From: an uncultured Treponema sp.
Lineage (GTDB): Bacteria > Spirochaetota > Spirochaetia > Treponematales > Treponemataceae
Length of the DNA stretch: 64,000 nucleotides
NCBI GenBank assembly: GCA_946410085.1
Contig: CAMJZA010000003.1
Location: 1-64,000, forward strand
Reading direction: 5' to 3'
Shown: piece after piece, positions 1 to 15,900 of the stretch
How the letters are laid out: each line of letters opens with the position of its first letter
How positions within the stretch are numbered: the stretch's first letter is position 1
Notes under the pieces: generated by a model
Databases searched by the model: none
The model's input: the letters and a program-made list of their open reading frames with translations, nothing else
What the model was told of the DNA's origin: nothing
Translations under genes and position numbers: made by a program

Positions 1-1352
1 CAGTTAATCGAATACAAAGAATCTTGGCGTGATGAATATCTCAAATGGATTTGCGGTTTTGCAAATGCGCAGGGTGGTGTGCTTTATATTGGTAAGCGTG
101 ATGACGGTTCTGTTTGTGGCGTTACTGATTCAAAGAAACTCATGGAAGATATTCCGAATACACATTCGTAGCAGGTGCGTGCGAATGTGGCGATGCGCTT
201 GGATTGATTGTTGATGTATATTTGATTACTGAGAACGGTTTAGATGTCATAAAAATCACCGTTGAAGAAAATCCTTATCCTGTGAATTACAAGGGAGAAT
301 ATCATTATAGGACTGGCAGTACAAAACAGCTTTTGCAAGGTTCGGCTCTGACTAATTTTCTTTTGCGTAAGACTGGTAAAAACTGGGATTCTGTTCCGCT
401 TGAAAATGTGAGCGTTGAAGACCTTGATAAAGAAAGCTTTGATATTTTCCACCGTGAAGCAATTCGCAGCGGAAGAGTGAGTAAAGATGACTTAAAGCTT
501 TCAAATATGGAATTGCTTGAAAAACTGAATCTGCTTGACGGAACTTTGATGAAAAGAGCTGCTGTTTTGTTGTTCCATCGCAATCCAGAAAAATGGATAA
601 CCGGCTCGTTTGTGAAAATTGGATTCTTTGAAACTGATGCAGATTTACGCTATCAGGATGAAGTTCATGGTTCGCTTATGATTCAAGCTGATAGAGTTAT
701 TGATCTTCTTTACACAAAATATCTTACGGCAGAAATTTCCTATGATAATATCACACGCATTGAGCATTATCCGTTCCCAAAGGATGCAATCCGCGAAGCA
801 ATTTTCAATGCGCTCATTCATCAGGATTTTTCTGTGGGCGTTCCTGTTCAAATCAGTGTGTACAAGGATAAACTTTACATCAGCAATGACTGTGTTTTCC
901 CTGAAGATTGGACGGCTGACACGCTCATGCAGAAACATCGTTCCCTGCCGCATAATCCCGATATTGCATATACATTCTATAGGGCAGGCTTCATTGAAAG
1001 CTGGGGACGCGGTATCGAAAAAATCTGTACGCTCTGCAGGGAATACGGTATTCCAGAACCGGAATATACTTTGCATCGCAATGACATTATGATGCTGTTT
1101 AAGACGCGTGTCCCTGTAAATGTCCCTGTAAATGTCCCTGTAAATGTCCCTGTAAATGTCCCTGTAAATCAACGTCAAAAACAGATTTTACTAAGCATTA
1201 AAGAAAATCCTCGCATTACAGCTTTACAGTTATCACAAAAGCTTGTTGTTACAGATAAAACAATAAAACGTGATTTACAGTATTTAAAAGTGAATAAAAT
1301 AATTGAGCATGTTGGACCAGATAAGACTGGCCATTGGGAGGTAAAAGAATGA
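1..1352 (+). pseudogene. Broken AlbA_2/Schlafen-type ATP-binding protein, 5' end outside window
   Basis: The first bases encode the AlbA_2 nucleic-acid-binding core (QLIEYKESWRDEY, then FANAQGGVLYIG) in frame 1. That frame meets a TAG at 169-171, and reading must change frame near 199-205 to reach the rest (GLIVDVYLI onward). The downstream part from 204 is open for 382 residues. It carries the HATPase_c_4-like half (AIREAIFNALIHQDF; GFIESWGRGIEKI), a linker of five exact VPVN repeats (1110-1169), and a C-terminal winged-helix domain (TALQLSQKLVV...KTIKRDLQYL). A TTG at 204 could start a truncated product, so residual function is not excluded. Family members are usually predicted regulators or defence-associated ATP-binding proteins. 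It is AT-rich like the adjoining debris. Family assignment is strong; the pseudogene call rests on two lesions. Confidence 0.8.
1110..1169 (+). repeat. 12-bp tandem repeat (5 units) encoding VPVN linker
   Basis: Five perfect 12-base units (GTCCCTGTAAAT) sit in frame in the broken AlbA_2 gene and encode (VPVN)5 between the ATPase half and the winged helix. Two other AlbA_2-family genes in the window carry a different 12-base tandem repeat at the same protein position. Confidence 0.9.
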
Positions 1353-1678
1353 ATATCTTGCAAATAGAGGAAATCGCCATTGTGGAGGGGAGCTAGCGGA
1401 ATATGAAAAGATGTAATATATGTGAAAGCTAATGGAGGTGAAATATATTGGCTGTAAAAGAATATTTTGACGGACAAAATTATATAACAGAAGAAAATGC
1501 CGCTATAAAAACGAATCAAAGGTTTATAATCACAAAAAGATCCTGAGCGAAAGCCATGTTATTCTTCTGCAGAAGAAACACTATTAGCATTTCTCAAACG
1601 CGAAAAAGATGCTTTTTAAGGATGAAATTGAATATATTATAGAGCAGACATCAGTAAGTATGAAGTTTTTGATTCAAA
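1353..1678. other. AT-rich decayed intergenic stretch
   Basis: There is no intact gene here. A good ribosome-binding site (GGAGGTG at about 1434-1440) precedes a TTG-started 32-codon frame from about 1449 to 1546 (LAVKEYFDGQNYITEEN at its start) that ends in TGA. Further short open pieces follow up to the repeat boundary at 1679. It reads as remnants of one or two small genes left after rearrangement. Confidence 0.5.
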
Positions 1679-2583
1679 TGTCTGAATTCTTGTAGTTTAA
1701 ATACTACAAACCGGCTGCTGTTTTTCCTGCTATCCTTCGGGGCACAAGGTCGTTGACCTTATACCGATTCTCAAGCCTGTATGTCAGGCTGGGTGCTGTC
1801 TCCCGTAAAAAAGACAGAAGGATAGTATATGACAAACATCAACAGTAAGCGCGAGACGAACTTCGCCGTGACCCTGAGCCCGTGCCAGTTCAGGGACCAC
1901 ACCTACGTTGCGCGCGTTCCCCGGCGGACGGTTACGACAGACCAGCTGCTGGACCTCGTTTCTGCCCACAATCAGGGAATTGACCGCTACCAGGTGGGAC
2001 ATGCGATGGAACTGCTCAAGAAGGAAATCCTTGAGCAGGCGGAACTGGGATTCGCCGTGGACATCATGGAAATCTGCAAGCTCTATGTTGCACCGATTTC
2101 TTCCGTGAAGACGCTCACGCCGGAGTCAGAATCCGTTTCCGGATTTGAAGCCCGCTTTGCCGTGAACAGGCAGCTCAAGAAACGGCTCCTGGGTGTTACG
2201 GCAACGGTCACCGCAGTGGTGGATTCTGCCCCGCAGCTTTCGCAGATTGTGAACCCCGTGAACGAAACAGAGGAAGGGGTTCTTGACGCAACCTTCAGCG
2301 CACGGATACGGGGCCACAAGCTCAAGGTCGGCGGAGAGGCAGGCGGCATCTTCTTTGTTCCTGTCACTGGAAGCGGTGAAGCAAATCCGGACGAGACAAG
2401 CTGGATCAAGGTTCCCGATGACTATGTAACGAAGAACACTGACGGCCTGCTGGAATTCCACCTTCCGCGGACGCTCGAAACCGGCAGTGAATACTTTATT
2501 GCCGTACGGACGGCACTTCGCGGCAACAAGGAACTGAAAAATCCGGTAACCGGCTTCAGTAAAATTCCCGTTACCATACGGTA
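1679..2583 (+). repeat. Long direct repeat, copy A (leader plus DUF4469 gene)
   Basis: This stretch matches 12320-13224 with a constant offset of 10641 and no indel that I can find. One mismatch lies in the leader (1698). The remaining differences noticed cluster in the last ~70 bp (from about 2512), where copy A reads ...ACGGCACTTCGC... and copy B ...ACTGCGGTCCGC.... The repeat spans a palindrome, a structured leader and a complete gene. No terminal inverted repeats or recombinase are visible. Confidence 0.9.
1690..1828 (+). promoter_or_regulatory. Structured 5' leader with sequestered Shine-Dalgarno, copy A
   Basis: A palindrome TTGTAGT-N6-ACTACAA (1690-1709) is followed by a multibranched fold. 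A 9-bp closing stem pairs CTATCCTTC (1730-1738) with GAAGGATAG (1817-1825). Inside are hairpins AAGGTC/GACCTT (1746-1760) and AGCCTG/CAGGCT (1774-1790), and a possible CTGTCT/AGACAG stem (1796-1817) that would compete for one base with the closing stem. The 3' strand of the closing stem is the ribosome-binding site of the gene starting at 1829, so the closed form should block initiation. It resembles a riboswitch or protein-autoregulated leader, but matches no class I recognise. Confidence 0.6.
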
Positions 2584-2584
2584 G
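1829..2584 (+). CDS. HU-like DNA-binding domain protein with DUF4469, copy A
   Basis: This 251-aa protein has an N-terminal HU/IHF-like region (about residues 1-120; FAVTLSPCQFRDHTYVARV, then VSAHNQGIDRYQVGHAMELL) and a C-terminal DUF4469 beta domain (about 140-251). Members are annotated as DNA-binding domain proteins in Bacteroidetes and Spirochaetes; their role is unknown, with nucleoid or structural functions proposed from the HU fold. The start is fixed by GAAGGATAG just upstream, which is buried in the leader stem. It differs from the copy at 12470 by a single residue near the C-terminus (TALRG versus TAVRG). It is GC-rich, unlike the AT-rich genes on both sides. No signal peptide is visible. 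Confidence 0.8.
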   Translation: MTNINSKRETNFAVTLSPCQFRDHTYVARVPRRTVTTDQLLDLVSAHNQGIDRYQVGHAMELLKKEILEQAELGFAVDIMEICKLYVAPISSVKTLTPESESVSGFEARFAVNRQLKKRLLGVTATVTAVVDSAPQLSQIVNPVNETEEGVLDATFSARIRGHKLKVGGEAGGIFFVPVTGSGEANPDETSWIKVPDDYVTKNTDGLLEFHLPRTLETGSEYFIAVRTALRGNKELKNPVTGFSKIPVTIR

Positions 2585-2598
2585 CGTCTGTCATCGTC

Positions 2599-2630
2599 CC
2601 TGCCTGTCCGCTTTGCAAAGGACAGGCAGG
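2599..2630 (+). terminator. Perfect 11-bp hairpin after DUF4469 copy A
   Basis: CCTGCCTGTCC (2599-2609) pairs perfectly with GGACAGGCAGG (2620-2630) around a 10-nt loop, 15 bp after the stop codon. There is no U-run, so it may be a 3' end-stabilising structure or a weak terminator. A related but longer GC stem with a T-run follows copy B. Confidence 0.5.
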
Positions 2631-2740
2631 CCGGCGGAACCTTGCCGGAACTACAGTACCCGTATCTGGCAAAGCTTCATCGCGGTAAGGGCGGTTGTGT
2701 GGCTTTCCGGCGTCACGAGGAAGGCGGAAGCTACATCCAG
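2631..2740 (-). pseudogene. Fragment of isochorismatase-family gene 3' end
   Basis: On the minus strand this encodes the last ~30 residues of a nicotinamidase/isochorismatase-like protein (VTPESHTTALTAMKLCQIRVL in two pieces: VTPESHTTAL and TAMKLCQIRVL), ending with the same TAG and the same downstream bases as the complete gene at 15388-15900. Nucleotide identity with 15361-15460 is high up to about 2733 and then stops. It is not an exact copy (the complete gene reads SHATALAAMK), so it may come from a paralogue. It marks a recombination junction between repeat copy A and the AT-rich operon. Confidence 0.75.
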
Positions 2741-2845
2741 TGCGTGTAAGTTGACAGATAGGTCTGGATATCGTACTATAAAAAGGGAAGAAGACAAGGG
2801 ATTTAGATAGCTGGTTTTGAAGAACTGACTACGGAATGAAAAAAT

Positions 2846-5800
2846 ATGCAGAAGAAAGTATATGTATATGACACTCCAATAGAAAATCTCCATCTTTCTC
2901 AGCGGTCTTATAATGTCCTAATGAATACTAATATTGATACGGTAGGAAAACTTGCTGCTTTTGTAAAATCGGATAGAGATGGATTGTTAAGTTTAAAAAA
3001 TCTCGGAAAAAAATCGGAAGAAGAGATCCTCAAGCTTCTTGATGGTATTGAGATTATTGGGATGGAGGAAATTGCTTATGATCAGCTAATAAGCAATAAT
3101 TGCTTTACACAGCAAAGTTGTAATAAATATATAGGAGAAACATCGAACAAAAAAGACACAGACTTCTTAAATCAGAAAGATTCACACAAAAAAATATACG
3201 CCTATAATACACCGATATCTGAGTTCAATCTTTCCTGTCGCTCTTATAATGTCCTCAAGAATAACAATATTGATACAATAGGCAAACTTACCGATTTTTT
3301 GAAGGTAAACACTAATGAGATTCTCCACTTTAATGGAATTGAATCAAGTACCGCTATGTACCTAGCTTCTCAATATCCACAGCTAATGAAGCTGAAGAAT
3401 CTTGGAGTCAAATCAGCACAAGAAATTCTAAACCTTCTTCAGGGTATTCAAATTGTAGACTCGGTAGAAGATATATGTGACACTTTGATAGATGACTGTG
3501 GTCTTTCTCAACGTGCAATCCGCAGTATCAAGTCACGAGATATAAAAACAATATCTGAATTGGAAAAGTATACTTTCGAAGAAATCAAGAAATGGGAAGA
3601 TATCGATAATTATACACTAGCAGAAATTTCTTGTACGTTGTATCCTGCAGATGACCAACCAATAACCGCACTTGGAACAAATGGCTGCATTTACTACTAT
3701 GTCATAAACAAATTCATGCTACAAAGTATGAATAAAAAGAATATAAGTGAATATAGTTTTTCAAACAGGGCTAAAAATGTTTTTAGAGAAAAACAAATAA
3801 AAACTCTTGTAGATTTGAAACAGTATTCTATTGAAGAAATAAGGAGATGGAGGAATGTCGGACAGAAAACAATTGACGAAATAATTGACATTTTGAGCCT
3901 GTCACAAGACATTCCCTTGGGACAGGAAAATATATCGAAGGATAAAATTAATATTTGCGTTTGTATTTCTGAGAATGCATTTCGTTTTTACACCGTATCG
4001 TTTTTATTCTTCAATAAACTTTTATCAATGTACTTTGAAAACGGTGCCTTACTTGATAAATTTCTAGAAGAAGAAGACAAATTTGAGTTTTGTGATACTT
4101 CTGCTATAGACGTCATTTTGTTTCAAAAAGAGTTCTTGAACACAAATCTTTTAAAGTTTTGCGAGTCTATTGCACAGGAGTTAAACAATTTTTCTGGAAC
4201 ACGAAAGAAGTCTTCTGTGGATATACTTATCGCTGCAATACATTGTATTCTTTTAAAACGTATTGAACTTGAAGGAATAATATATGCTCTTGATTCTACA
4301 TTCTATGATCTGGTGTGTAAGGATAAAATTTATCTTGAAGTTGTAAAACGGAAAGAGCTGGAGATTTTAAAAGACACGATATATCCAATCTCCGTGGATG
4401 ATTTTTATCAGTTTTTTCCTTTGGTTATTCAGAATTCAGGACTGGTAAACACAGCTCTGCGTGAGCTTAAGGAAGCAGGTGTCGTTCGAAAGCTTGAAAA
4501 TGATAGTTTTGAAATAATCCGGCCATCTGTTGTTGATTATATAGATGATGTCGAAGATGAAAAAGCAAAAGATATCTTAAAGCGAAGGATAATTAATGGA
4601 CAATCTCTGGAAGAAATAGCAAACAAATATGATTTAACACGCGAAAGAGTCAGGCAAATAATAGTCAAGAACTTCAAAACACAATCTGAGCACATATCAT
4701 TTGTAGAAGATAAATATGCATTCATTTATCAGAAGTACAATTTCAAGAAAAAGGATGCCAAAGTCATATTTGGAGATGTTGCAGCAAATTATTTTTTCTT
4801 AAGATATGAATCTGGAACGATAAATCTCGAAGAAAGTCTTGAAGACAAATCCATTCCGCAGGATATGCGAAAACGCATTCAAAATGAGATAGTTTATACT
4901 GACTACATTGCTGTAGAAAATCAATACGTAAAGAAGTTTCGACCAGACTTATATGATTATTACATCAGACACTATTGTACAGAAGACATCGAACTTGATA
5001 TATTCATAAAGGAATACAGTGCGTTTTGGGAGCGTCATGGTGTAGAGAAAGAAATTTATGAGGTAGATAGTCGGACCATTCAAGGGCAGATGTCAAAAAA
5101 GAAGAATATTCTGTACAAATACCCTCGGACATTCCGCTTCTATGACTTTGACCAGTACGATTTTACAGATTTACTGGACACGCTTAATCTTTCGCAATAT
5201 GAAAATGTTATGCTTTCTACAGCGAAATTCACAAAAGACTATCCGAAGCTGATGAAAAGATATGACATTAGAGATGAATATGAGCTACACAGTCTTTTGC
5301 GAACATTGTTGGAAGATAAAGAGAACAACATAACTTTTCATAGGATGCCAGGGATAGAATTTGGAAAAGCAGATGTAAATGCACAGGTCCTGGAACTGTT
5401 AAACGAAAATGCCCCTGTTTCTCCAGAGAAACTCTCCCTCCTATATGAAGAAAAATACGGTGCACAGGCTATGACCGTTCGAGCCAGTTATTTTAACTGT
5501 ATAAGCAAGTACCTTCAGAATGGATTATATATTATAGATTTACCATCGTTGACAGATGATGAGTTTGAATATCTTAAACAGCAATTAACAGATGATTTTT
5601 ATACTATAAAAGATGCGAAGAAAATATTGGAACAAAAATTTACTGATTCATCGCATATAAACTCAATGACTCTAAAAGAGCTTGGATTTATCGTTAATGA
5701 GAATTACATTGTTAATGGAAGGTTTGAGTCTGCGGCTTCTTACTTCAAGTATCTTTTGTCAAAAAACGAAAAGATAACCTATGAGGGTATTCCTGTAGAA

Positions 5801-6340
5801 ATAAGGCATGTTGTAATGTTCAATACGGTTCTTAACAGCCTTCTTGATGATTATGAGATAGTTGAATATGACAAGAAAAAATATTTGAACTTCTCCAAAC
5901 TTTCGAGTATAGGAATAATAAAAGAGGATATTCATGATTTCTGCAAAGAAATATACTCTTTAAATTTATCAGAGTTTTTCGGAATGAAGCAAGTAAAAGA
6001 AACCGGTTTTAAACATAAACTCTTTGAGCTTGGATTTGACGATTGGTTTTATGAGCGAATCCTGTCACGAAACGACACTCTCTTTTCAAGCCAACAAATA
6101 GGTGGAAGTATAGTTCTCTCCAAAGGAAGACAAACGGTAACATGGGTCTCATTGCTGGAATATCTCCTGCCAGAGGAAGGAATGAATATACACAGGCTTG
6201 CAGAAAAACTGAATGCAGACTATGGCATGCGCGTTAGTAAAAATGATATCTTGGCAAGAATAATAGATAGTAATTTATATTATGACAAGATTATGGAAAA
6301 GCTGTATATTTGCTATGCAGATTATTTTGCGGAGGCTTAA
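2846..6340 (+). CDS. Large protein with RpoA-CTD-like repeats and sigma-region-4-like HTH
   Basis: This is an 1164-aa cytosolic protein. The N-terminal ~360 residues hold about four copies of a module like the C-terminal domain of RNA polymerase alpha: TPIENLHLSQRSYNVL then LKNLGKKSEEEILKLL (10-66); TPISEFNLSCRSYNVL (~122) then LKNLGVKSAQEILNLL; a diverged one near 215-265; and FSNRAKNVFREKQIKTL then WRNVGQKTIDEIIDIL (~305-355). Around residues 565-605 sits a sigma-70 region-4-type HTH (SLEEIANKYDLTRERVRQII). The remaining ~550 residues are not recognised. Real alpha has a single CTD, which contacts DNA, sigma and activators, so a protein that mimics or senses transcription machinery is an inference. 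It is first in an AT-rich operon, and its stop is two bases before the next start. Confidence 0.7.
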   Translation: MQKKVYVYDTPIENLHLSQRSYNVLMNTNIDTVGKLAAFVKSDRDGLLSLKNLGKKSEEEILKLLDGIEIIGMEEIAYDQLISNNCFTQQSCNKYIGETSNKKDTDFLNQKDSHKKIYAYNTPISEFNLSCRSYNVLKNNNIDTIGKLTDFLKVNTNEILHFNGIESSTAMYLASQYPQLMKLKNLGVKSAQEILNLLQGIQIVDSVEDICDTLIDDCGLSQRAIRSIKSRDIKTISELEKYTFEEIKKWEDIDNYTLAEISCTLYPADDQPITALGTNGCIYYYVINKFMLQSMNKKNISEYSFSNRAKNVFREKQIKTLVDLKQYSIEEIRRWRNVGQKTIDEIIDILSLSQDIPLGQENISKDKINICVCISENAFRFYTVSFLFFNKLLSMYFENGALLDKFLEEEDKFEFCDTSAIDVILFQKEFLNTNLLKFCESIAQELNNFSGTRKKSSVDILIAAIHCILLKRIELEGIIYALDSTFYDLVCKDKIYLEVVKRKELEILKDTIYPISVDDFYQFFPLVIQNSGLVNTALRELKEAGVVRKLENDSFEIIRPSVVDYIDDVEDEKAKDILKRRIINGQSLEEIANKYDLTRERVRQIIVKNFKTQSEHISFVEDKYAFIYQKYNFKKKDAKVIFGDVAANYFFLRYESGTINLEESLEDKSIPQDMRKRIQNEIVYTDYIAVENQYVKKFRPDLYDYYIRHYCTEDIELDIFIKEYSAFWERHGVEKEIYEVDSRTIQGQMSKKKNILYKYPRTFRFYDFDQYDFTDLLDTLNLSQYENVMLSTAKFTKDYPKLMKRYDIRDEYELHSLLRTLLEDKENNITFHRMPGIEFGKADVNAQVLELLNENAPVSPEKLSLLYEEKYGAQAMTVRASYFNCISKYLQNGLYIIDLPSLTDDEFEYLKQQLTDDFYTIKDAKKILEQKFTDSSHINSMTLKELGFIVNENYIVNGRFESAASYFKYLLSKNEKITYEGIPVEIRHVVMFNTVLNSLLDDYEIVEYDKKKYLNFSKLSSIGIIKEDIHDFCKEIYSLNLSEFFGMKQVKETGFKHKLFELGFDDWFYERILSRNDTLFSSQQIGGSIVLSKGRQTVTWVSLLEYLLPEEGMNIHRLAEKLNADYGMRVSKNDILARIIDSNLYYDKIMEKLYICYADYFAEA

Positions 6341-6342
6341 AA

Positions 6343-7557
6343 ATGACGTTGTTAGACGAAGGCTTGGAAAGTGGTGCTGTTGTAAAGACTCAGATGTCCA
6401 AAAAGTTTTCAATCGATGGGACAACACAAGTTTTCCCTGTGTATCGTATAAGGCTTGATTTGTTATATTTTAATGACCAGAATAATCGTATAGCGACATG
6501 GCTGAGTCAATACCGCTCGGAACATAATGGTGATTCGCCATCTACCAATGATAAAGAATCCTTCAACAGGATTATTGAAGATTACATCATAAAGAGCAAT
6601 CCAGAGGCCATAAAGCGCACGGAAACGAATATAGAACTTGTTGATCAGCGTGAGCCGGGTGTCGTATTGAACGATGGCCGCATTATAGATGGAAACAGAC
6701 GTTTTACTTGTCTTCGCCATCTTGCAAGGAAAACGGAGAAATTCAATGCATTCGAGGCCATTATCCTTAACAGGGACATAGAGAAAAGTGCAAAACAGAT
6801 AAAACTTTTGGAACTTGCGATTCAGCATGGTGAAGAAAGCAAGGTCGATTACAATCCAATAGATGAACTGGTCGGTATTTATAATGATATTGTACTGACA
6901 AAGCTTGTCTCGGAAGAGGAGTATGCAAGGAGTTGTAATATCCCTCTAAAAGATGTAAAGCACCGCCTTGAAAATGCAAGGCTCTTGAATGAGTTTTTGG
7001 AATACATAAATGCTCCTAGGCAATACCATATTGCCCGGGACTTGGATATTGCCACATCTCTTGATGCTCTCAATATCCTGTTAAAGAAACTGCATGATGA
7101 AGAAGAAAGGGAAAAAACGAAAATCTGTATTTTTACAAATATCATTATGCACACAGGATCGGATATGAAAATTTTTGTCCGTGACATCGGAAAAGTTGCA
7201 AATTCCATTTACTTTGATGAATATCTTGAGGAGCAATTACCCATAGCTGAACAAGTTGCGAATATGCTTCCTGAAATTGGAAAAAGCAATGCGGCTTCCA
7301 TAACACAAACAGTAAGAAAGAATGACAGCATTCGCAATGACTTGGAAGATTCACTTGAGAAGGTTCTGTATAAAACAAAGCGCAAAGAAACAAGAAATCT
7401 TCCTGCAAAGAACCTCTCAAAGGCAAAATCGATACTTGAAGGAATAGATACAAATATCTTTCAAAAACTATCAGAGGACGAAATTAACGATGTAAAGCGT
7501 GAGTTGAACAGATTAAAGTTTTATGTTTCTGAAATAGAAAGGAAGCTAAATGTTTGA
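6343..7557 (+). CDS. ParB-like domain protein
   Basis: This 404-aa protein starts at the ATG behind GGAGG, which overlaps the end of the preceding gene. The N-terminal ~130 residues read as a ParB/Srx-type nuclease-like domain: VFPVYRIRLDLLYF at the start, then VLNDGRIIDGNRRFTCLRHL, matching the family pattern of Gly-x-Ile-x-Asp-Gly-(H/N)-(H/R)-R. The middle is helical with charged segments, as in ParB DNA-binding regions, and the C-terminus (KSILEGIDTNIF...LKFYVSEIERKL) looks coiled-coil. It may be a DNA- or nucleotide-binding partner rather than a partition protein, as no ParA is nearby. It lies between the RpoA-CTD-like gene and the helicase and overlaps the helicase start by 8 bp. Confidence 0.65.
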   Translation: MTLLDEGLESGAVVKTQMSKKFSIDGTTQVFPVYRIRLDLLYFNDQNNRIATWLSQYRSEHNGDSPSTNDKESFNRIIEDYIIKSNPEAIKRTETNIELVDQREPGVVLNDGRIIDGNRRFTCLRHLARKTEKFNAFEAIILNRDIEKSAKQIKLLELAIQHGEESKVDYNPIDELVGIYNDIVLTKLVSEEEYARSCNIPLKDVKHRLENARLLNEFLEYINAPRQYHIARDLDIATSLDALNILLKKLHDEEEREKTKICIFTNIIMHTGSDMKIFVRDIGKVANSIYFDEYLEEQLPIAEQVANMLPEIGKSNAASITQTVRKNDSIRNDLEDSLEKVLYKTKRKETRNLPAKNLSKAKSILEGIDTNIFQKLSEDEINDVKRELNRLKFYVSEIERKLNV

Positions 7558-9442
7558 TTGTATCTTTATTTTCAGTAACCAATTTCTTCTCAAATTTGCA
7601 TCTGAAAACCTGACAGAATTTCAAGCAACTTTTTTCTACAAGTTATATATAAAGATGTATGTAGAAAAAGTAGTTGACAATACAATTATTTTCAGAAGGA
7701 ACTTTTCCTATCTAAAACTTAACAAACTACTGGAAACTTTGAAGGGAGCTGCAGATCGCTATAAAATTACATGGCAGATAGATGATAGTGTTAATGCTTA
7801 TATAAAAGAAAAAGAAATTCATATAGAAGAACGCTATAAGCTTGGAAACGAGTTGAAGCATCATGACGCAAAACTCTTGGAAAGGTTCAACCAATATAAG
7901 GAAATTGTAAACTCTCTGATGATTCGTCCCCTGCGAGAACGTCAGATGTGGGATTCTTTCTTTATGTTTGCAATGCAAAAGGCTGGAAACTTTTCGGTTC
8001 CTGGCTCCGGGAAAACAGCGGCAGCCCTTGGTGTTTATGCATATTTGTATAAAATGAAAAGAATCAACCGTGTTATAGTGATTTGTCCTAAAAATGCTTT
8101 TGGCTCATGGATTGACGAATTTGGCTTGTCCTTTGGCGACAATATTTCGTTGCATTATTTTATGCTGCATAATAAAGCATATAAAAGCATTCAAGAAAAG
8201 AAAAACGCAATACTATATGACTCTGGAAAATCAAACCTTCTTCTGTTCAACTATGAATCCTTGAGAACATATTGCAATGACATCTCGCAAATTGTTGACA
8301 ATGAAACGCTGTTAATATTTGATGAGGTTCATAAGGTTAAGAAAATAAATGGGGAATATGCTGTAAACGCCTTGAAGATTGCAGAGAATGCCAGCTCAGC
8401 GATAGCAATGACTGGAACACCGATACCAAATTCATACTTGGATATTTACAATTTCCTGCATATTCTTTTTCCAAATGAATACGATGATTTCTTTGGCTTC
8501 GAAACCAGCACATTGGCAAATCCCGGAAAGGATATGATGCAAGTGATAAACCTGAGAATACAACCGTTCTTTTGCAGAACAAACAAACAGGAGATGAATG
8601 TCCCGCCTCCAAATCCAGATTTTATAGATTTCTTTTCATCAACAAAAGACGAAAATGAGGTTTTGAACATCTTGTTGAAAAAATACAGGGGGAATAACCT
8701 TGCTTTGTTCGTAAGGATTCTTCAGTTGGAATCAAATCCGAAGAGGCTTCTCGAAGTGCTTGACATAAGCGAATTCTGCCACATCTTTGATATAGATATA
8801 AAGGATGAAGAGAAGATTGATTTTGCTGATTACTCAGAGGATATAAAAAAGCTTATAAACTCTATATCTATAACGACTAAGTTTAAGAGATGTTTACATA
8901 TTGTGAATCAAATTGTGGATGAGAATAAACCTGTAATAATCTGGTGTATATTCAGGGATACGATTCAGCATTTCTCAAAGGCGCTAAAAGAAATAGGAAT
9001 AACTGCAAAATGTATTTATGGGGAAGTAGAGCTTGAAGAACGGCAAAGATTGCTTCAGTCATTCAGGGATAGGGAGTTTGAAGTTCTGATAACCAATCCG
9101 CATACGCTTGCTGAATCAGTTTCCCTTCATTCTGTTTGTCATGATGCAGTATACTTCGAGTACAGCTACAATCTCGTACATTTGCTTCAATCAAAAGACC
9201 GTATCCATCGCTTGGGGTTGCCACCGGATCAATATACACAATATTACTTCTTGCAACAGAATTATCGGATAAATGATATCTATTTTGGGGTCGGAGACTT
9301 TTCTTTGGATAAAAAGGTTTATGACAGGCTCCTTGAGAAAGAACATATTATGTTAGAAGCCATTGATAATGACATTCTTGAGACGATGCCCACAAATGAA
9401 GAGGAGTTGAACATGATTTTTAAGGAATTTGATAAAAGGTAG
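7550..9442 (+). CDS. SNF2-type DEAD/DEAH helicase
   Basis: This 630-aa superfamily 2 ATPase has Walker A PGSGKTAAAL (~151), a segment VIVICPKNAFGSWIDEF (motif Ia), DEVH (~258), TGTP (~290), and a C-terminal helicase lobe with VIIWCIFRD (motif IV) and LLQSKDRIHRLG (motif VI, ~547). The arrangement is that of SNF2/Rad54-like translocases. The first ~140 residues show no known domain and may be a partner-binding region. It overlaps the ParB-like gene by 8 bp, so the two are probably translationally coupled. Such ATPases are common engines of anti-phage and DNA-modification systems; that role here is inferred from context. All key motifs are present, so it is likely active. Confidence 0.85.
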   Translation: MFDCIFIFSNQFLLKFASENLTEFQATFFYKLYIKMYVEKVVDNTIIFRRNFSYLKLNKLLETLKGAADRYKITWQIDDSVNAYIKEKEIHIEERYKLGNELKHHDAKLLERFNQYKEIVNSLMIRPLRERQMWDSFFMFAMQKAGNFSVPGSGKTAAALGVYAYLYKMKRINRVIVICPKNAFGSWIDEFGLSFGDNISLHYFMLHNKAYKSIQEKKNAILYDSGKSNLLLFNYESLRTYCNDISQIVDNETLLIFDEVHKVKKINGEYAVNALKIAENASSAIAMTGTPIPNSYLDIYNFLHILFPNEYDDFFGFETSTLANPGKDMMQVINLRIQPFFCRTNKQEMNVPPPNPDFIDFFSSTKDENEVLNILLKKYRGNNLALFVRILQLESNPKRLLEVLDISEFCHIFDIDIKDEEKIDFADYSEDIKKLINSISITTKFKRCLHIVNQIVDENKPVIIWCIFRDTIQHFSKALKEIGITAKCIYGEVELEERQRLLQSFRDREFEVLITNPHTLAESVSLHSVCHDAVYFEYSYNLVHLLQSKDRIHRLGLPPDQYTQYYFLQQNYRINDIYFGVGDFSLDKKVYDRLLEKEHIMLEAIDNDILETMPTNEEELNMIFKEFDKR

Positions 9443-9510
9443 CGAAAAACATTGTGATTTTGAATATTTCTTGAACAATAAATTTTTATAAGAATAAAGG
9501 GATACAATTT

Positions 9511-10371
9511 ATGGATTATATTGATTACAGAAAACAACTTGGTATTGACTTCAATGATTCTGAGAAGCAGAAGCTGTTTGTAAAAAGAATTCATACACTA
9601 TTTCTTACAAGATATGAAGTAGAGTTTTGTGAGAATGAAGATATAAAATTCTGTTGTGAGATGGGATTTGAAAGTCTTATTGAGAAACGTGATATGCAAC
9701 ATTTAATACTGTCAAAAAATAATGAACCACTTGGTATGAAACGTTTGTTTTATTATCTTGACTCTTATTCTAAGGACTTTTATGATTATCTGTATGGCAT
9801 TTTAACTTTTCTAAATATCTGTGTTTTTGATTCAGAAATAAAAATCTCTATGTTTAATGCAGTAAAAACGGCTTTAGAAAGTTGTCATATTCAATATGAT
9901 TGTTTTCAGGAAAACGAAAAATATTTTATATTTCCAAAAGGAGCAAAAGAACTTGATAGGGCTTTGGTATCAGAACCATTAGAATGGCTTTCTAACTATC
10001 CAAATTCAAGAAAATCATTCGTAAAAGCATTGGAATTATACTCTAATTCTACTAATAATAATGCAAGTGATGTTGCAGATGCTTTTAGAAAAGCATTAGA
10101 GACTTTCTTTCAAGATTTTTTTGAATTGAAGGATTTAACGATTGAAAAAACATTAGAAAGAAATGTGTATGAAAGATATTTGAAAGAAAAGGAGATTCCT
10201 GGTGAAATCAGGAACAATTTTCGTTCTCTTCTGGATTCATATCGAAATTTTATGAATAATTACGCAAAGCACCATGATAAAACGACAAATAGTATATTAG
10301 AATATATTATGTATCAGACTGGAAATATAATTCGATTATTGATTACTTTGAAGCATTCAGAAGAGAAATGA
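9511..10371 (+). CDS. Abortive-infection-like protein (weak similarity to AbiJ/HEPN-type C-termini)
   Basis: This 286-aa protein has no signal peptide or membrane segment. The C-terminal half (about 165-286) resembles domains at the end of abortive-infection proteins: EWLSNYPNSRKSFVKALELY, SDVADAFRKALETFFQDFF, then a helix ending RNFMNNYAKHHD and a final ILEYIMYQTGNIIRLLI. The Arg/His pair in RNFMNNYAKHH recalls HEPN ribonuclease motifs (R-x4-6-H), but the spacing is not canonical. The N-terminal half is not recognised. It starts 68 bp after the helicase gene in the same direction and base composition, so it probably belongs to the same unit as a possible effector. Function is inferred from position and weak similarity. 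Confidence 0.5.
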   Translation: MDYIDYRKQLGIDFNDSEKQKLFVKRIHTLFLTRYEVEFCENEDIKFCCEMGFESLIEKRDMQHLILSKNNEPLGMKRLFYYLDSYSKDFYDYLYGILTFLNICVFDSEIKISMFNAVKTALESCHIQYDCFQENEKYFIFPKGAKELDRALVSEPLEWLSNYPNSRKSFVKALELYSNSTNNNASDVADAFRKALETFFQDFFELKDLTIEKTLERNVYERYLKEKEIPGEIRNNFRSLLDSYRNFMNNYAKHHDKTTNSILEYIMYQTGNIIRLLITLKHSEEK

Positions 10372-10488
10372 TACTTTAGGATCTATGTTTGTTCAACAAA
10401 AAACTGTGTGGTTGAGTTTTTGATTTAGGAGAAGTTGAAAACTTAAGAAACATTGGAATAATAAGGAAATCTTTGACTGGAAGAAAAA

Positions 10489-10692
10489 ATGAGTAACATA
10501 CATATCAATTCAATAAATATCGACACCTACAGGGGAATCAGAAAGCTCAAGCTGGAAGGGTTTATGAGAGTCAATATCCTTACAGGGGACGACAACTGTG
10601 GTAAAACGAGTGTTCTTGAACTGCTGAATATGCTCATAAACCAAACGGATGTGCAGGTATGGCAGTCGGTTATATGGAGGTCCTCATGTTAG
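10489..10692 (+). pseudogene. Truncated OLD-type AAA ATPase (N-terminal stub)
   Basis: This 67-codon frame starts like an OLD-family or RecF-like ATPase (INSINIDTYRGIRKLKLEGF) and contains a Walker A P-loop (GDDNCGKTSVLELL). Similarity fades about ten residues before its stop, exactly where the next gene's ribosome-binding site begins (GGAGG at about 10677). The other ~300 or more residues expected for the family are missing. OLD ATPases are often effectors in defence systems, so this is probably the relic of another defence gene cut by insertion of the AlbA_2 gene. Confidence 0.75.
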
Positions 10693-12296
10693 ACCTGCAA
10701 TCACTTCTTTCCTCTCGTTCTGAAAATGAAGTTCTTGAATTCAAGGAAGCAAAGAACAGCTTTGACATCGACAAGCTTGGTAAGTATTTTTCTGCACTGA
10801 GCAACGAAGCGAATCTTGCAGGCAAGGACAAGGCATATCTGCTTTTCGGTGTAAAGGATGACAGGACTATCGTCGGAACGAATATTTCTGATTCGACGGT
10901 CAACGAGTTTAAACGGGAAATTTCCAAAAATACGTCGCCGACCATTTCTTTTCTTGATGTCGAACGGATTCAGACGGCTGACGGCGATGTACTTTGCTGT
11001 GTGATTCCTGCCGCCCCGCACGGAGTTCCGATTGCATGGAAGGATTTGTATTACGGCAGGGCGGGAGAGAGCCTTGGCGGATTGAACCTTGATGAGATTC
11101 AGCGGATTCTGAATCAGACCCGATACAGTGACTGGAGCGCACAGATTGTTCCGAATGCGACGATAGGACACCTCTCTCCAAAAGCGATTAAACTTGCACG
11201 GACGATGTACGCCGAAAAGAATCCCCGGTTGGCGGGCGATATTGAACGCTGGGATGACCAGACCTTCTTGAACAATGCACGGCTTACCCGAGAGGGAAAG
11301 ATAACCAATGCGACGGTTCTTCTTTTAGGAAAGCGGGAGTCAGAAGATTTGATTCTTCCTGCCCTCAGTCAGATTACCTGGATTCTGAAGGACCGTGATG
11401 GTGTTGTGAAGGATTACGAGCACTTCTTCTGCCCGCTGATTGTTTCAGCTGAACAGGTACAGCAGAAAATCAGGAATCTCACATACCGCTATATGACGGG
11501 TGTCTCAATTTTCCCGAAGGAGACTTTGCAGTATGACCCTTATATCATTCGCGAGGCTTTGAATAATTGCATTGCCCATCAGGACTACACGAGGGCTGGA
11601 AGAATCACGGTACAGGAGCATGAGGATGACTATCTGATTTTCTGTAATTGCGGTGATTTCATTCCGGGAAGCATCGAGAATGTACTGAAGGCAGAATATT
11701 CTGCGAGCAATTATCGCAATCCGTTCCTTGCAACCGCTATGGTGAATCTGAATATGATAGATACGGTTGGCAGCGGAATCCTCAAGATGTTCCTTGCCCA
11801 GAAAATGCGTTGCTTTCCGCTCCCGGATTATGACTTCTCCAATCACGAAGTTCGCATGAAGCTGTACGGCAAGATTCTTGACGCACAGTATACAAAAAGA
11901 CTTCTTGATGAAGATTTAACGCTCCCGGAAGTACTTGTACTGGACAGGAAGCAGAAAGAAACATATGTGAACGCAGGAGCAAAATTTGACGTTACTGTAC
12001 AAAGCTTCGTTGATGACGGTAATGCCACGGTAGATGGGACTATGCCCAATAAACTGCCCAATAAACTGCCCAATAAACTGCCCAATAAACTGTCGGAAAA
12101 TACCCGAAAAACATATCATGCAATAGCCGAAAACCCGGCAGCGACCATCCGGCAGTTGTCTTCCCAACTTGGATTTTCAGAACGCACAATAAAAAGTCAT
12201 CAATCCCTGCTAAAAGAGGCTGGACTTATACAATATGTTGGTTCCAGGAAAGACGGCTACTGGAAAATTCTGGAAACGGAGGCTGACGGGAGCTGA
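10686..12296 (+). CDS. AlbA_2/Schlafen-type ATP-binding protein with winged helix
   Basis: This is the intact member of a family that is broken at both window ends. The start is the ATG at 10686 behind GGAGG, giving 536 aa. Order: AlbA_2 domain (residues 1-150; NEVLEFKEAKNSF, then GKDKAYLLFGVKDD, then YYGRAGESLGGLNLDEI), an HATPase_c_4-like region (REALNNCIAHQDY; DTVGSGILKMF), a linker with four LPNK-type repeats (12045-12092), and a winged-helix domain (IRQLSSQLGFSERTIKSHQSLL) ending YVGSRKDGYWKIL. The family is often called putative transcriptional regulators or RecG-like; some members take part in phage defence. It lies just 23 bp upstream of repeat copy B, and its broken relative lies upstream of copy A, which suggests a linked unit. 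Confidence 0.85.
   Translation: MLDLQSLLSSRSENEVLEFKEAKNSFDIDKLGKYFSALSNEANLAGKDKAYLLFGVKDDRTIVGTNISDSTVNEFKREISKNTSPTISFLDVERIQTADGDVLCCVIPAAPHGVPIAWKDLYYGRAGESLGGLNLDEIQRILNQTRYSDWSAQIVPNATIGHLSPKAIKLARTMYAEKNPRLAGDIERWDDQTFLNNARLTREGKITNATVLLLGKRESEDLILPALSQITWILKDRDGVVKDYEHFFCPLIVSAEQVQQKIRNLTYRYMTGVSIFPKETLQYDPYIIREALNNCIAHQDYTRAGRITVQEHEDDYLIFCNCGDFIPGSIENVLKAEYSASNYRNPFLATAMVNLNMIDTVGSGILKMFLAQKMRCFPLPDYDFSNHEVRMKLYGKILDAQYTKRLLDEDLTLPEVLVLDRKQKETYVNAGAKFDVTVQSFVDDGNATVDGTMPNKLPNKLPNKLPNKLSENTRKTYHAIAENPAATIRQLSSQLGFSERTIKSHQSLLKEAGLIQYVGSRKDGYWKILETEADGS
12045..12092 (+). repeat. 12-bp tandem repeat (4 units) encoding PNKL linker
   Basis: Four perfect in-frame units (CCCAATAAACTG) encode (PNKL)4 between the ATPase half and the winged helix. 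Slippage by one unit would change linker length without breaking the frame. Confidence 0.9.
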
Positions 12297-12319
12297 AGGC
12301 GAAGCAATCCCGGTCCGCC

Positions 12320-13224
12320 TGTCTGAATTCTTGTAGTTAAAATACTACAAACCGGCTGCTGTTTTTCCTGCTATCCTTCGGGGCACAAGGTCGTTGACCT
12401 TATACCGATTCTCAAGCCTGTATGTCAGGCTGGGTGCTGTCTCCCGTAAAAAAGACAGAAGGATAGTATATGACAAACATCAACAGTAAGCGCGAGACGA
12501 ACTTCGCCGTGACCCTGAGCCCGTGCCAGTTCAGGGACCACACCTACGTTGCGCGCGTTCCCCGGCGGACGGTTACGACAGACCAGCTGCTGGACCTCGT
12601 TTCTGCCCACAATCAGGGAATTGACCGCTACCAGGTGGGACATGCGATGGAACTGCTCAAGAAGGAAATCCTTGAGCAGGCGGAACTGGGATTCGCCGTG
12701 GACATCATGGAAATCTGCAAGCTCTATGTTGCACCGATTTCTTCCGTGAAGACGCTCACGCCGGAGTCAGAATCCGTTTCCGGATTTGAAGCCCGCTTTG
12801 CCGTGAACAGGCAGCTCAAGAAACGGCTCCTGGGTGTTACGGCAACGGTCACCGCAGTGGTGGATTCTGCCCCGCAGCTTTCGCAGATTGTGAACCCCGT
12901 GAACGAAACAGAGGAAGGGGTTCTTGACGCAACCTTCAGCGCACGGATACGGGGCCACAAGCTCAAGGTCGGCGGAGAGGCAGGCGGCATCTTCTTTGTT
13001 CCTGTCACTGGAAGCGGTGAAGCAAATCCGGACGAGACAAGCTGGATCAAGGTTCCCGATGACTATGTAACGAAGAACACTGACGGCCTGCTGGAATTCC
13101 ACCTTCCGCGGACGCTCGAAACCGGCAGTGAATACTTTATTGCCGTACGGACTGCGGTCCGCGGCAATAAGGAACTGAAAAACCCGGTAACCGGCTTCAG
13201 TAAAATTCCCGTTACGATCCGCTA
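12320..13224 (+). repeat. Long direct repeat, copy B (leader plus DUF4469 gene)
   Basis: This is the second copy of the ~905 bp repeat and begins 24 bp after the AlbA_2 gene. Flanking sequence differs completely from copy A on both sides (left ...CGGTCCGCC versus ...GATTCAAA; right GGCGCCAGG versus CGTCTGTCA), so the match ends are sharp. Confidence 0.9.
12331..12469 (+). promoter_or_regulatory. Structured 5' leader with sequestered Shine-Dalgarno, copy B
   Basis: It has the same palindrome (12331-12350) and multibranch leader as copy A. The only difference (12339, T to A) falls in the palindrome loop, so every stem is kept. The closing stem again pairs with the ribosome-binding site of the gene at 12470. 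Confidence 0.6.
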
Positions 13225-13225
13225 G
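12470..13225 (+). CDS. HU-like DNA-binding domain protein with DUF4469, copy B
   Basis: This 251-aa protein is identical to the product of 1829-2584 except for one residue near the C-terminus (Val for Leu). The HU-like N-terminal domain and DUF4469 C-terminal domain are as described there. The stop is followed by a strong GC hairpin and T-run, so it is probably monocistronic from a promoter in the repeat or upstream. Near identity between two copies 10.6 kb apart implies recent duplication or ongoing gene conversion. Confidence 0.8.
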   Translation: MTNINSKRETNFAVTLSPCQFRDHTYVARVPRRTVTTDQLLDLVSAHNQGIDRYQVGHAMELLKKEILEQAELGFAVDIMEICKLYVAPISSVKTLTPESESVSGFEARFAVNRQLKKRLLGVTATVTAVVDSAPQLSQIVNPVNETEEGVLDATFSARIRGHKLKVGGEAGGIFFVPVTGSGEANPDETSWIKVPDDYVTKNTDGLLEFHLPRTLETGSEYFIAVRTAVRGNKELKNPVTGFSKIPVTIR

Positions 13226-13244
13226 GCGCCAGGCGCTTGGTGCC

Positions 13245-13300
13245 CCGGCCTGTCCGCATTGTGTGGGCGGGCCGGTAAGCGTCTGGCAGTTTTTTTAGGT
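13245..13300 (+). terminator. Probable terminator after DUF4469 copy B
   Basis: CCGGCC (13245-13250) pairs with GGCCGG (13270-13275), with GTCC/GGGC-type pairs inside. A seven-T run follows ~15 nt later (13290-13296). The distance from stem to T-run is longer than usual. Confidence 0.5.
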
Positions 13301-13383
13301 GTCGCCCAGCGGCTTGTTCGTTGCCCTTTCTGCGCCCTCAAATGCCGCCTCAACGCCCGCTGAAAAATTGTTTTGATTTTCCC

Positions 13384-13414
13384 TTGACCTGGCCGGAAGG
13401 GCCGGGTTTAGTAT
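13384..13414 (+). promoter_or_regulatory. Candidate sigma-70 promoter for creatininase operon
   Basis: TTGACC (13384-13389), then 17 nt, then TTTAGT (13407-13412), or TAGTAT two bases further on. This leaves a leader of about 115 nt before the start at 13532. Confidence 0.45.
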
Positions 13415-13531
13415 ATGGCTCAGGTTTGCAGGCGATATGCAAACGATACGCAGCCGGCAGGCGGACAGCCGCGGCAGATGTCCCGCGCTTTTGTCGCAGG
13501 AGACGCTCTCAGGCTGCTGCAGGAGGAAACA

Positions 13532-14413
13532 ATGAAGGACCTGAGCCTATTGACATGGAAGGAGATTAAGTCGCTCGATAAGGAAAAGAGCATCGTGTTT
13601 GTCGTGCTTGCTCCGATCGAAGAGCACGGCCTGTGCCTGCCGCTTGCGACGGATCTGCTGGAGGGACTGCACTGGAGCAGGGGCGCCATGGCCCGTGTGG
13701 AAGCCGCCCTGGATGCCGAATGCTGCTACCTGCCGCCGTTTCCGGTTGCAGCCGCCTCGGTCACCGGCTTCTACGGTTCGATCCATTTTACGATGAAGAC
13801 CACGTATGACGTTGCCCGGGGCATTCTTGAAAGCTTGTGCTGCATGGATTTCATGCACATCATCGTCATCGCATCCCATGCGGACCCCCAGCACCAGATT
13901 GCCGTCGAAAAGGCCGTGCGGAAGGTAAACCGCAGGTATGGAACCCGTGCAATGGCTCCGATGGGGCCGATATTCATGGGAGCGGGTGTTGCACAGGCAG
14001 AGCCGGTCCGGCGTATGCAGCAGGAACATGCGGATGACTATCATGCAGGCTGGGTCGAAACTTCATGCATGCTGGACATTGACCGCAGCAGCGTTCGGGA
14101 CGGCTACCGGCAGCTGCCCGATTCAGAGATTTTCGGCAGGGATATGATCTTCAGGAAAAGGCAGGAGCAGGCGATGGGGGTATACGGGCACATCGGCTCC
14201 CCGCAATACGCAACGGCGGAACTGGGAAAGCTGCTGAACGAAAACTGCATTGCTTCCCTCTGTGAAGCGGTGGTATGCTTTTATAAGCGGAGCGGCTATC
14301 AAAGGTATGCGAAGTATCCGCTGTACGCAATCCTTCCGCTCCATATCGGCTTTCTGGGCATGGCCGGAAAGGTACGGCGGAGGAGTCCGGAAAAAAGGAG
14401 GCAGGGAGCATGA
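13532..14413 (+). CDS. Creatininase-family amidohydrolase (divergent)
   Basis: The start is the ATG at 13532 behind AGGAGGAAACA; upstream in-frame codons do not look like protein. The product is 293 aa, close to the family's usual 240-270 plus a basic tail. The first metal-binding block is present (APIEEHGLCLPLATD), and HAGWVETSCML matches the family's HAGExETSxML with Trp in place of Glu. The normal Asn-Gly-His-Gly-Gly-Asn block is replaced by IASHADPQHQIAVE, keeping one His. Family members hydrolyse cyclic amides such as creatinine or formamides made in riboflavin/F420 or mycofactocin pathways; the substrate here is unknown. It overlaps the MerR gene by 4 bp (ATGA), so the two are co-transcribed. 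Confidence 0.75.
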   Translation: MKDLSLLTWKEIKSLDKEKSIVFVVLAPIEEHGLCLPLATDLLEGLHWSRGAMARVEAALDAECCYLPPFPVAAASVTGFYGSIHFTMKTTYDVARGILESLCCMDFMHIIVIASHADPQHQIAVEKAVRKVNRRYGTRAMAPMGPIFMGAGVAQAEPVRRMQQEHADDYHAGWVETSCMLDIDRSSVRDGYRQLPDSEIFGRDMIFRKRQEQAMGVYGHIGSPQYATAELGKLLNENCIASLCEAVVCFYKRSGYQRYAKYPLYAILPLHIGFLGMAGKVRRRSPEKRRQGA

Positions 14414-15327: not shown

Positions 15328-15387
15328 GCGGCGGAATCCTGTTTCCTGTCCTGCCGCAGAAGACCGGCCAGCGGAACCTTGCCGGAA

Positions 15388-15900
15388 CTACAGTACCCGT
15401 ATCTGGCAGAGCTTCATCGCGGCAAGGGCGGTCGCGTGGCTTTCCGGCGTGACGCAGGCACAGCAGGAGGAATCCGCCGTAATCGGAACTTCCGGTAGTT
15501 TTGCCTTGAGGATGAAGGCGTTGCTGATGACGCAGATGCCGGTGCACAGGCCGACGAGCTCTATGTCCGTCAGCCCGTCCAGCGTTGCCGCGAAGTCGGC
15601 AAGTGCCAGGGAGCCGAACGAGGGTTTGTCAAAAATCTGGCTGTCTCCGACCGGAAGTTTGTCCGAAATCTGCCAGCCCTGCGTTCCTTCGACGTAGTGG
15701 ACGACGGGAAGGTTCTTCCCCTCCTGCGTTTCAAGATAGTTCTGCTGATGCGTGTCGCGCGTAAACACGACCATATCGCCCGCAGCCCGGGCGCGGGCAA
15801 TCTTTGCCGCAACGGCGGGGACGATGGCGGCCGCCTCTTTTGTTCCCAGCGCGCCGTCAATAAAATCATTCTGCATGTCAATGACGATGAGCAGTTTCAT
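15388..15900 (-). CDS. Nicotinamidase/isochorismatase-family hydrolase
   Basis: The start is at 15900, behind AGGAGG, giving 170 aa; extensions further upstream do not resemble the family. Catalytic triad: Asp in LIVIDMQNDF (residue 8), Lys in FDKPSFGSL, Cys in LVGLCTGICVISNA. The stretch DSSCCACVTPESHATAL matches the nicotinamidase signature (canonical DACxGVTPESH). It probably deamidates nicotinamide or a related amide for NAD salvage, although the metal-site histidines of classical PncA are only partly visible (FTRDTH present). The gene stands alone and convergent with the MerR operon. A fragment nearly identical to its 3' end lies at 2631-2740. Confidence 0.8.
   Translation of the reverse strand: MKLLIVIDMQNDFIDGALGTKEAAAIVPAVAAKIARARAAGDMVVFTRDTHQQNYLETQEGKNLPVVHYVEGTQGWQISDKLPVGDSQIFDKPSFGSLALADFAATLDGLTDIELVGLCTGICVISNAFILKAKLPEVPITADSSCCACVTPESHATALAAMKLCQIRVL

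Follow-up and report, generated by a model that had tools for sequence, protein, structure and literature searches.

A modular operon of an alpha-CTD/sigma region-4 protein, a ParB-type protein and exchangeable effectors in an uncultured Treponema sp., with a most likely role in defence

PglW of the type-2 bacteriophage exclusion (BREX)/Pgl systems is, according to the accessible part of its description, a large proposed sensory hub in which a module resembling the carboxy-terminal domain of the RNA polymerase alpha subunit (alpha-CTD) is followed by winged helices, and which also has a NERD nuclease, kinases and iSTAND (PMC12839542). MzaA of the MZA systems (NF041931) is sigma-like and carries a helix-turn-helix (HTH) resembling sigma region 4. 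The other MZA components are MutL, Z1, DUF and AIPR proteins. A Swt1-type HEPN-ParB fusion was entered in a table of HEPN families in 2013, and the part of that source available to us names no alpha-CTD/sigma region-4 partner, HIRAN partner or SNF2 exchange (PMC3710099). Dnd systems include HEPN, HKD-helicase and winged HTH parts, with no alpha-CTD protein in the accessible portion of their description (PMC10853773). Here we describe a set of three genes, designated g1, g2 and g3, that lies with a fourth gene, g4, at positions 2846-10371 of a 64,000-nucleotide stretch of DNA (the window) from an uncultured Treponema sp. (GenBank assembly GCA_946410085.1, contig CAMJZA010000003.1, positions 1 to 64,000). 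The g1-g2-g3 set is a real, widespread modular system whose effectors are swapped between lineages, and its most likely role, well supported by context, is in defence.

g1 shares with PglW the succession of alpha-CTD-like module and winged helices and differs from it in the nuclease, kinase and iSTAND parts; its match to the PglW profile is weak (4.5e-13 in PADLOC and 7.2e-9 in NCBIfam; 33.9 bits against a cut-off of 990). The likeness to MzaA is confined to the sigma region-4-like HTH, with a match of only some 30-40 residues (6.4e-4 for window g1 and 3e-8 for the g1 of a related locus, L018; 18.6 bits against a cut-off of 800). Neither BREX families, including PglX, PglZ and BrxC, nor the other MZA components occur in the Pfam matches of the nine window proteins scanned (204-14410). 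The Swt1-type HEPN-ParB fusion, as far as the accessible part of its source goes, is the make-up of g2 in a sister lineage. g3 is matched in the PADLOC and NCBIfam libraries solely as a generic SNF2 motor: Zorya type I ZorD covers the shared SNF2 core (3.9e-25 in PADLOC; 24.1 bits against 1500 in NCBIfam), and DISARM DrmD reaches 41.3 bits against a cut-off of 610. A long form of g3 (locus L033), which joins an HKD/PLD domain (PLDc_2) to the SNF2 motor, matches the PLD-type anti-phage family NF042964 over its PLD part (3.9e-16, far below the family cut-off). Window g3 has no PLD domain, the matches to these families all fall far below their cut-offs, and the partner genes are not the same. The ParB, Noc and KorB proteins of chromosomes and plasmids, and the ParABS systems with their adjacent ParA, differ from the window operon in that it contains no ParA; the neighbors of window g2 are g1 and g3, and the partner of g2 is a SNF2 motor or a HEPN domain. 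A sequence-only reading of this DNA had proposed a new defence-type operon, and comparison with the defence-model collections agrees with it insofar as g1 and g2 both lack a covering model in PADLOC and NCBIfam. No description of the g1-g2-g3 set was found in the open-licence literature searched. The operon is composed as follows:

2751-2779, plus strand: sigma70-type promoter-like site of the operon, TTGACA-17-TACTAT (1 found against 0.3 expected from shuffles)
2846-6340, plus strand: g1, 1164 amino acids (aa), putative DNA-reading protein with an alpha-CTD array, a sigma region-4 HTH and a winged-helix array
6343-7557, plus strand: g2, 404 aa, ParB/Noc/KorB-like, putative CTP-switch clamp; its ATG lies within the open reading frame (ORF) listed from 6310
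7550-9442, plus strand: g3, 630 aa, SNF2 translocase, lacking the PLD nuclease that other lineages have at the N-terminus
9511-10371, plus strand: g4, 286 aa, matches PADLOC candidate PDC-S32; cargo, not conserved together with g1-g3

As had been noted from the ORF listing, the four genes lie on one strand with junctions of +2 bp (g1/g2), -8 bp (g2/g3) and +68 bp (g3/g4), and the region is AT-rich (GC content 0.33-0.42 at 2-10 kb versus 0.55-0.65 at 12-18 kb).

A collection of species genomes was scanned with a g2 alignment, and the census was taken on the best 80 of 168 relatives. In 72 of these 80 loci, an immediate neighbor of g2 encodes a g1-type protein, where "g1-type" includes six 437-aa proteins sharing only C-terminal parts (L078-L082 and L086) and a contig-end fragment (L040); together with sets on Enterococcus plasmids, this bears out the expectation that genes 1-3 stay together elsewhere. 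The eight loci without g1 comprise six without contig room for it (L034, L070, L076, L089, L092 and L093) and two with room (L071 and L091). SNF2 follows g2 or is fused to it in 49 loci, 21 of which have an N-terminal PLD nuclease, and L070 provides a g2-g3 fusion. HEPN_Swt1 is instead fused to g2 in 27 loci, all 27 with an intact RN-x3-H motif. No locus has HEPN and SNF2 together, and four have neither (L025 and L028 at contig ends, L035, where BrxL follows, and L060, with HIRAN). Of the 22 loci with a HIRAN gene, 21 are of the HEPN kind. The SNF2, HEPN, PLD and HIRAN assignments were made with profiles built in this analysis; Pfam reports HEPN_Swt1 in 12 of 49 g2 rows scanned, these 12 being of the HEPN type, and also in L040, L071 and L091. 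Distances among g1, g2 and g3 are correlated, with Mantel r of 0.79-0.88 in SNF2 loci and 0.87 in HEPN loci (37 of 45 and 22 of 23 loci, respectively, passing score thresholds), values reached by 0 of 2000 permutations. In L077, a Sau3AI-like part is joined to the C-terminus of g1. At L035 (6963-13244), g1 is followed by a C-terminally extended g2 and then by BrxL (1.6e-134), possibly a third kind of effector.

The set is patchily distributed and mobile replicons carry it. Within the genus, g2 was found in 2 of 146 genomes, the window's own included, and full-length g1 in 2 of 392 genomes of the phylum (G000 and G144, again with its own); one class of 391 genomes has g1 (E <= 1e-25) in four, with matches that span most of the protein in two. 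These searches, which scored a small number of candidates in each genome, may have overlooked some. An apparent 182 of 392 phylum genomes with a g1 match was set aside, the others listed being short sigma-region matches of ~20-35 bits that were not counted. The nearest named loci lie in two Treponema metagenome-assembled genomes, with g2 at 76-77% identity to that of the window. Among 72,556 plasmids, g2 relatives are present in 66 and g1 in 52. The complete g1-g2-g3 set occurs on plasmids of E. casseliflavus, E. faecalis and E. lactis, in the last beside a type I restriction-modification (R-M) system, and one further Enterococcus plasmid has a split g2; other plasmids carry type III R-M with g2-g3, or Dcm with MutH/Sau3AI-type genes. 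A streptococcal phage has genes for a BanI-type restriction endonuclease, g2, SNF2, NOV_C and Dcm, and a scan of viral_contigs with g2 alone gave no relative.

Pfam supports the proposed composition of g1, four alpha-CTD modules (RNA_pol_A_CTD, 3e-44) and a sigma region 4 (Sigma70_r4, 2.7e-7). Its parts are:

2864-3040, plus strand: alpha-CTD module 1 (56.8 bits)
3194-3442, plus strand: alpha-CTD module 2, split by an insertion (3194-3298 and 3377-3442; profile match)
3470-3637, plus strand: alpha-CTD module 3 (profile match)
3728-3898, plus strand: alpha-CTD module 4 (profile match and structure)
4322-4519, plus strand: winged helix, residues ~493-558 (Rpa2 winged helix 9f2a_C, Z 9.8, root-mean-square deviation (rmsd) 1.4 over 63)
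4556-4669, plus strand: sigma-70 region-4 HTH with recognition helix R599, E600, R601, R603, Q604
4748-6331, plus strand: putative winged-helix run, residues ~635-1162 (our reading of predicted secondary structure)

The AlphaFold model bears out the alpha-CTD fold: residues 297-353 align with 7vpd_S, an RNA polymerase alpha-CTD (Z 10.6, rmsd 0.9 over 57). Its sigma region-4 part aligns with WhiG 6pfj_A (Z 8.6, rmsd 2.2 over 59). The model has a mean predicted local distance difference test score (pLDDT) of 80.1 and a predicted template modelling score (pTM) of 0.46, the latter making domain placement uncertain; a Foldseek search with the whole model found nothing in the PDB at E <= 0.001, the best row being a UFL1/DDRGK1 chimera at 2.4e-3. 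When a profile of 51 g1 relatives was compared with solved structures, the best matches were RpoA alpha-CTDs (8.6e-17) and primary sigma region 4 (1.1e-10), and Pfam finds sigma region 4 in 49 of the 51. The last ~260 residues of g1 are common to a MutH/Sau3AI-type protein and, in part, to the 437-aa proteins. Modules 1 and 2 are 78% identical in DNA over 74 bp (2889-2962 and 3225-3298), perhaps through a recent module duplication.

Residue conservation was tabulated on rows of our choosing, 54 for alpha-CTD and sigma region 4 and 60 for the g2 and HEPN motifs; the alpha-CTD survey drew 110 modules from 45 of the 54 proteins searched. We took alpha-CTD positions N268, G296, K298 and S/T299 to be DNA contacts. 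R265 and N294 are DNA contacts, and D259/E261 sigma contacts, in the available part of a published account (PMC5511352). Across 107-109 modules, R265 is kept in 91%, N268 in 85%, G296 in 80% and S/T299 in 87%. For sigma70, the accessible part of a second source links R584, E585 and R588 to reading of the -35 element, with no direct contact by R588 in a crystal structure (PMC2613000). The g1 recognition helix has the form R-E-R-x-R-Q, with all five of R599, E600, R601, R603 and Q604 present in 50 of 54 g1 proteins, and a host RpoD-like protein (L122) carries the same helix, TRERIRQI. Judged by these residues, g1 keeps the base-reading surfaces of both alpha-CTD and sigma region 4, and its binding to promoters is putative.

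g2 had been described as ParB-type, and both its AlphaFold model (pLDDT 86.8), which has a ParB/Noc/KorB fold, and its nucleotide motifs agree. Foldseek placed it nearest to Noc and CDP-bound ParB (2e-4 to 1e-3), and VIA-align gave likeness to KorB 8qa9_A (Z 10.7, rmsd 4.9 over 198), ParB-CDP 7bnk_B (Z 10.2, rmsd 9.9 over 132) and ParB 6sdk_A (Z 10.2, rmsd 10.6 over 151). Pfam gave nothing above cut-off for g2, and sequence profiles alone gave no convincing PDB relative. The GxRR and ExxxQ patterns, which we take to be the nucleotide motifs of the ParB superfamily, are located as follows (residues counted from base 6340):

6688-6702, plus strand: D-G-N-R-R motif, residues 117-121; D117, G118, R120 and R121 in 60 of 60 rows
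6811-6825, plus strand: ENxQR-like motif, E158 to Q162; both residues in 60 of 60 rows

g3 was correctly recognized as SNF2 (Pfam SNF2-rel_dom 2.5e-19, Helicase_C 2.7e-10).

We favor, at slightly better than an even chance, a reading in which g1-g2-g3 forms a defence system that is modular, moves horizontally and targets DNA, with the following mechanism. It draws on the joint occurrence and correlated distances of g1, g2 and g3, the gene fusions, the mutually exclusive effectors, the restriction genes near many relatives, and the kept DNA-reading and nucleotide-motif residues. g1 would be the DNA-reading subunit, its alpha-CTDs entering the minor groove of A/T-rich, UP-like DNA and its sigma region-4 helix contacting -35-like DNA, and the end of its winged-helix run probably docks g2. 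Upon binding its DNA, which is possibly promoter-like, g1 would load g2, which may act as a CTP switch and clamp of the ParB/Noc/KorB type. The closed clamp would then recruit or activate the effector: the SNF2 motor g3 in the window, and among its relatives either a fusion of PLD nuclease and SNF2 or a HEPN ribonuclease at the N-terminus of g2. In ParB, the nucleotide domain is the part that pairs upon CTP binding, and HEPN ribonucleases act as dimers; since the HEPN domain of HEPN-g2 proteins sits just before this domain, clamp closure would be a natural HEPN switch. The window motor may act by stripping, silencing or compacting DNA, or through a partner, for example g4. If this reading is correct, a ParB-type CTP clamp would be a general immune switch able to drive either a DNA motor or a ribonuclease.

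A bolder version, which we regard as tentative and well short of an even chance, is promoter-reading immunity, in which g1 would act as a reader of UP and -35 elements without polymerase, making strong promoters the loading sites of a clamp with exchangeable effectors (SNF2, PLD or HEPN). Such promoters might, for example, be ones vacated when a phage takes over transcription, or ones that arrive naked on incoming foreign DNA. The idea is consistent with the residue conservation in g1 and directly testable. If true, immunity would be triggered by promoter DNA and not by methylation state or a phage protein, a restriction accessory module could have become a methylation-free, possibly suicidal form of immunity by taking over promoter-recognition modules, and there would be a clean test of whether bacteria use promoter elements as a mark of invasion.

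The locus could instead be restriction-like, with g1 as a target-recognition-like reader of a fixed sequence, g3 translocating for cleavage and a methyltransferase elsewhere protecting self; we hold this unlikely. It draws on the g2 tree (93 rows, quickly built, long branches flagged, rooted on Dcm/BanI-type rows), whose deepest branches are restriction-associated (Dcm, BanI, Sau3AI or type III), and on the C-terminus that g1 shares with the MutH/Sau3AI-type protein. The window itself falls in a 40-row clade (Shimodaira-Hasegawa-like approximate likelihood ratio test 98) of SNF2 without PLD plus the HEPN group, the latter with a single origin (100). Outside this clade, 16 of 41 loci have a Dcm-type methyltransferase and/or a Sau3AI-like gene. 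A methyltransferase match in the flanks is found in 1 of 39 clade loci (window not counted) versus 15 of 41 others, which argues against a restriction function here, with flank lengths varying by locus and methyltransferases undercounted because the small query set (Dcm, HsdM and Mod) missed six actinobacterial loci with type III Res-like genes. Within the window, moreover, no ORF of the 64 kb matches the Dcm, HsdM or Mod queries and the Pfam matches of the nine proteins include no methyltransferase. With caution, this history suggests a route from restriction accessory to methylation-free system.

Two further explanations concern transcription and replicon upkeep. The sequence-only reading had g1 watching or capturing transcription complexes, such as phage-taken RNA polymerase or sigma, through protein contacts of its alpha-CTD and sigma region-4 modules before triggering g2/g3. 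Both modules do derive from the RNA polymerase holoenzyme, and their nearest solved relatives are holoenzyme parts. The alpha-CTD surface for sigma is nonetheless poorly kept in comparison with the DNA contact R265, an acidic residue occupying position 261 in 18% of 107 modules and position 259 in 40% of 101, and many relatives lie beside restriction enzymes, which act on DNA; capture is not supported, and we consider it very improbable. Mobile-element maintenance, partition or regulation, with g1 as a transcription regulator and g2/g3 as a ParB-based DNA-organizing pair, appears rather improbable. Plasmid location, the ParB fold, ParA genes near g2 in Exiguobacterium and a solitary g1 gene speak for it, as does the perfect -35 TTGACA of the operon promoter, which makes autoregulation by g1 possible. 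Upstream of g1 genes, TTGAC is mildly enriched (21 of 63 versus 13.0 expected, a count reached in 2 of 200 shuffles) and TTGACA-N16-18-TANNNT occurs in 2 of 63 (0.29 expected; 5 of 200 shuffles), but TTGACA alone is not enriched (7 versus 4.7 expected in the same 63), and A-tracts 5' of g1 genes likewise show no enrichment. The Pfam matches of the nine window proteins include no ParA, and among the plasmid loci read, ParA lies beside g2 in none besides two Exiguobacterium plasmids. Defence is favored over maintenance or regulation because HEPN fusions with an intact motif, PLD nucleases, restriction partners and BrxL fit it better.

Several observations weigh against the defence system proposed here. 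The 72 of 80 figure comes from the relatives nearest to window g2, and the distance correlation may be partly due to common descent. A full-length g1 relative (L141; 7207-9795, minus strand, 862 aa, sigma region-4 helix intact), one of the two long matches in the class of 391 genomes, is solitary in a chromosome, where the 17 kb read contain no g2. The final ~58 profile positions are missing from it, as would be expected, on this one case, if that end docks g2. In the class of 391 genomes, g2 is present in six, and g1 accompanies it in one, the center of the sample (g1-g2-g3). The other five are a HEPN-g2 without g1 (the L091 locus) and four g2-SNF2 loci without g1 and with a Dcm-like gene nearby, this assignment being by sight of sequence starts; three of the four are remote (1e-33 to 1e-37) and one has only 0.6 kb upstream. 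ParA genes lie 5' of g2 in the two Exiguobacterium plasmids. alpha-CTD is not universal in g1 (44 of 51 by Pfam and 45 of 54 in the residue survey), although truncation of some rows by contig ends (L021, L025 and L032 begin late) lowers the alpha-CTD count, and enterococcal g1 is largely without the array; K298 and N294 are each kept in 56% of modules. Lastly, the window motor g3, lacking PLD, has no nuclease with which to harm a target. Matches to the second half of g1 are spread over five separate places of NZ_CP081879.1, a plasmid of Exiguobacterium acetylicum, on which two ParA-family genes lie just 5' of g2.

What stands of the defence-operon proposal is the conserved, portable operon, g1 and g2 without a PADLOC or NCBIfam model, and the company of restriction, HEPN and PLD genes; complex capture and g4 as the toxic effector are not supported. 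g4 has no relative in the ORFs of the other 94 loci read or in the 72,556 plasmids, and this absence beside relatives of g1-g3 rules it out as part of the unit and marks it as separate cargo. Its supposed abortive-infection-like C-terminus was not confirmed beyond the PADLOC PDC-S32 match (6.5e-19): Pfam gave nothing above cut-off, HEPN_Apea being a weak match (E 0.13). No similarity was found between g4 and the second protein 3' of g3 in L017, and no mention of PDC-S32 in the open-licence literature searched.

The operon lies in an island flanked by a 942-bp direct repeat, which carries an HU/DUF4469 gene and has two copies only in a search of its own genome:

1679-2615: left direct-repeat copy, HU-DUF4469 gene, island boundary
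10659-12296, plus strand: AlbA_2/RecG-C-terminal-like gene of the same island (Pfam AlbA_2, 4e-16)
12320-13261: right direct-repeat copy, island boundary, 97.7% identical to the left

AlbA_2 and OLD genes had been claimed as neighbors. The former is present, and no OLD gene emerged from a P-loop scan (G-x4-GK[S/T]) of stop-to-stop frames >250 aa across the 64 kb, which returned only an ABC-type and an AAA-type ATPase. The latter is a lone gene (19693-21054, minus strand, P-loop GARQIGKT) in a lower-GC stretch and is perhaps a second acquired gene. A RecG-C-like gene precedes each HU/DUF4469 repeat copy, possibly marking a cassette-exchange site. The two RecG-C-like products (204-1352 and 10659-12296) have short tandem peptide repeats (PVNVPVNV... 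and PNKLPNKL...) before a C-terminal HTH, the second also having AlbA_2. An 89-bp repeat, 93% identical, is found just after the left HU gene (2629-2717) and past the right end of the island (15366-15454).

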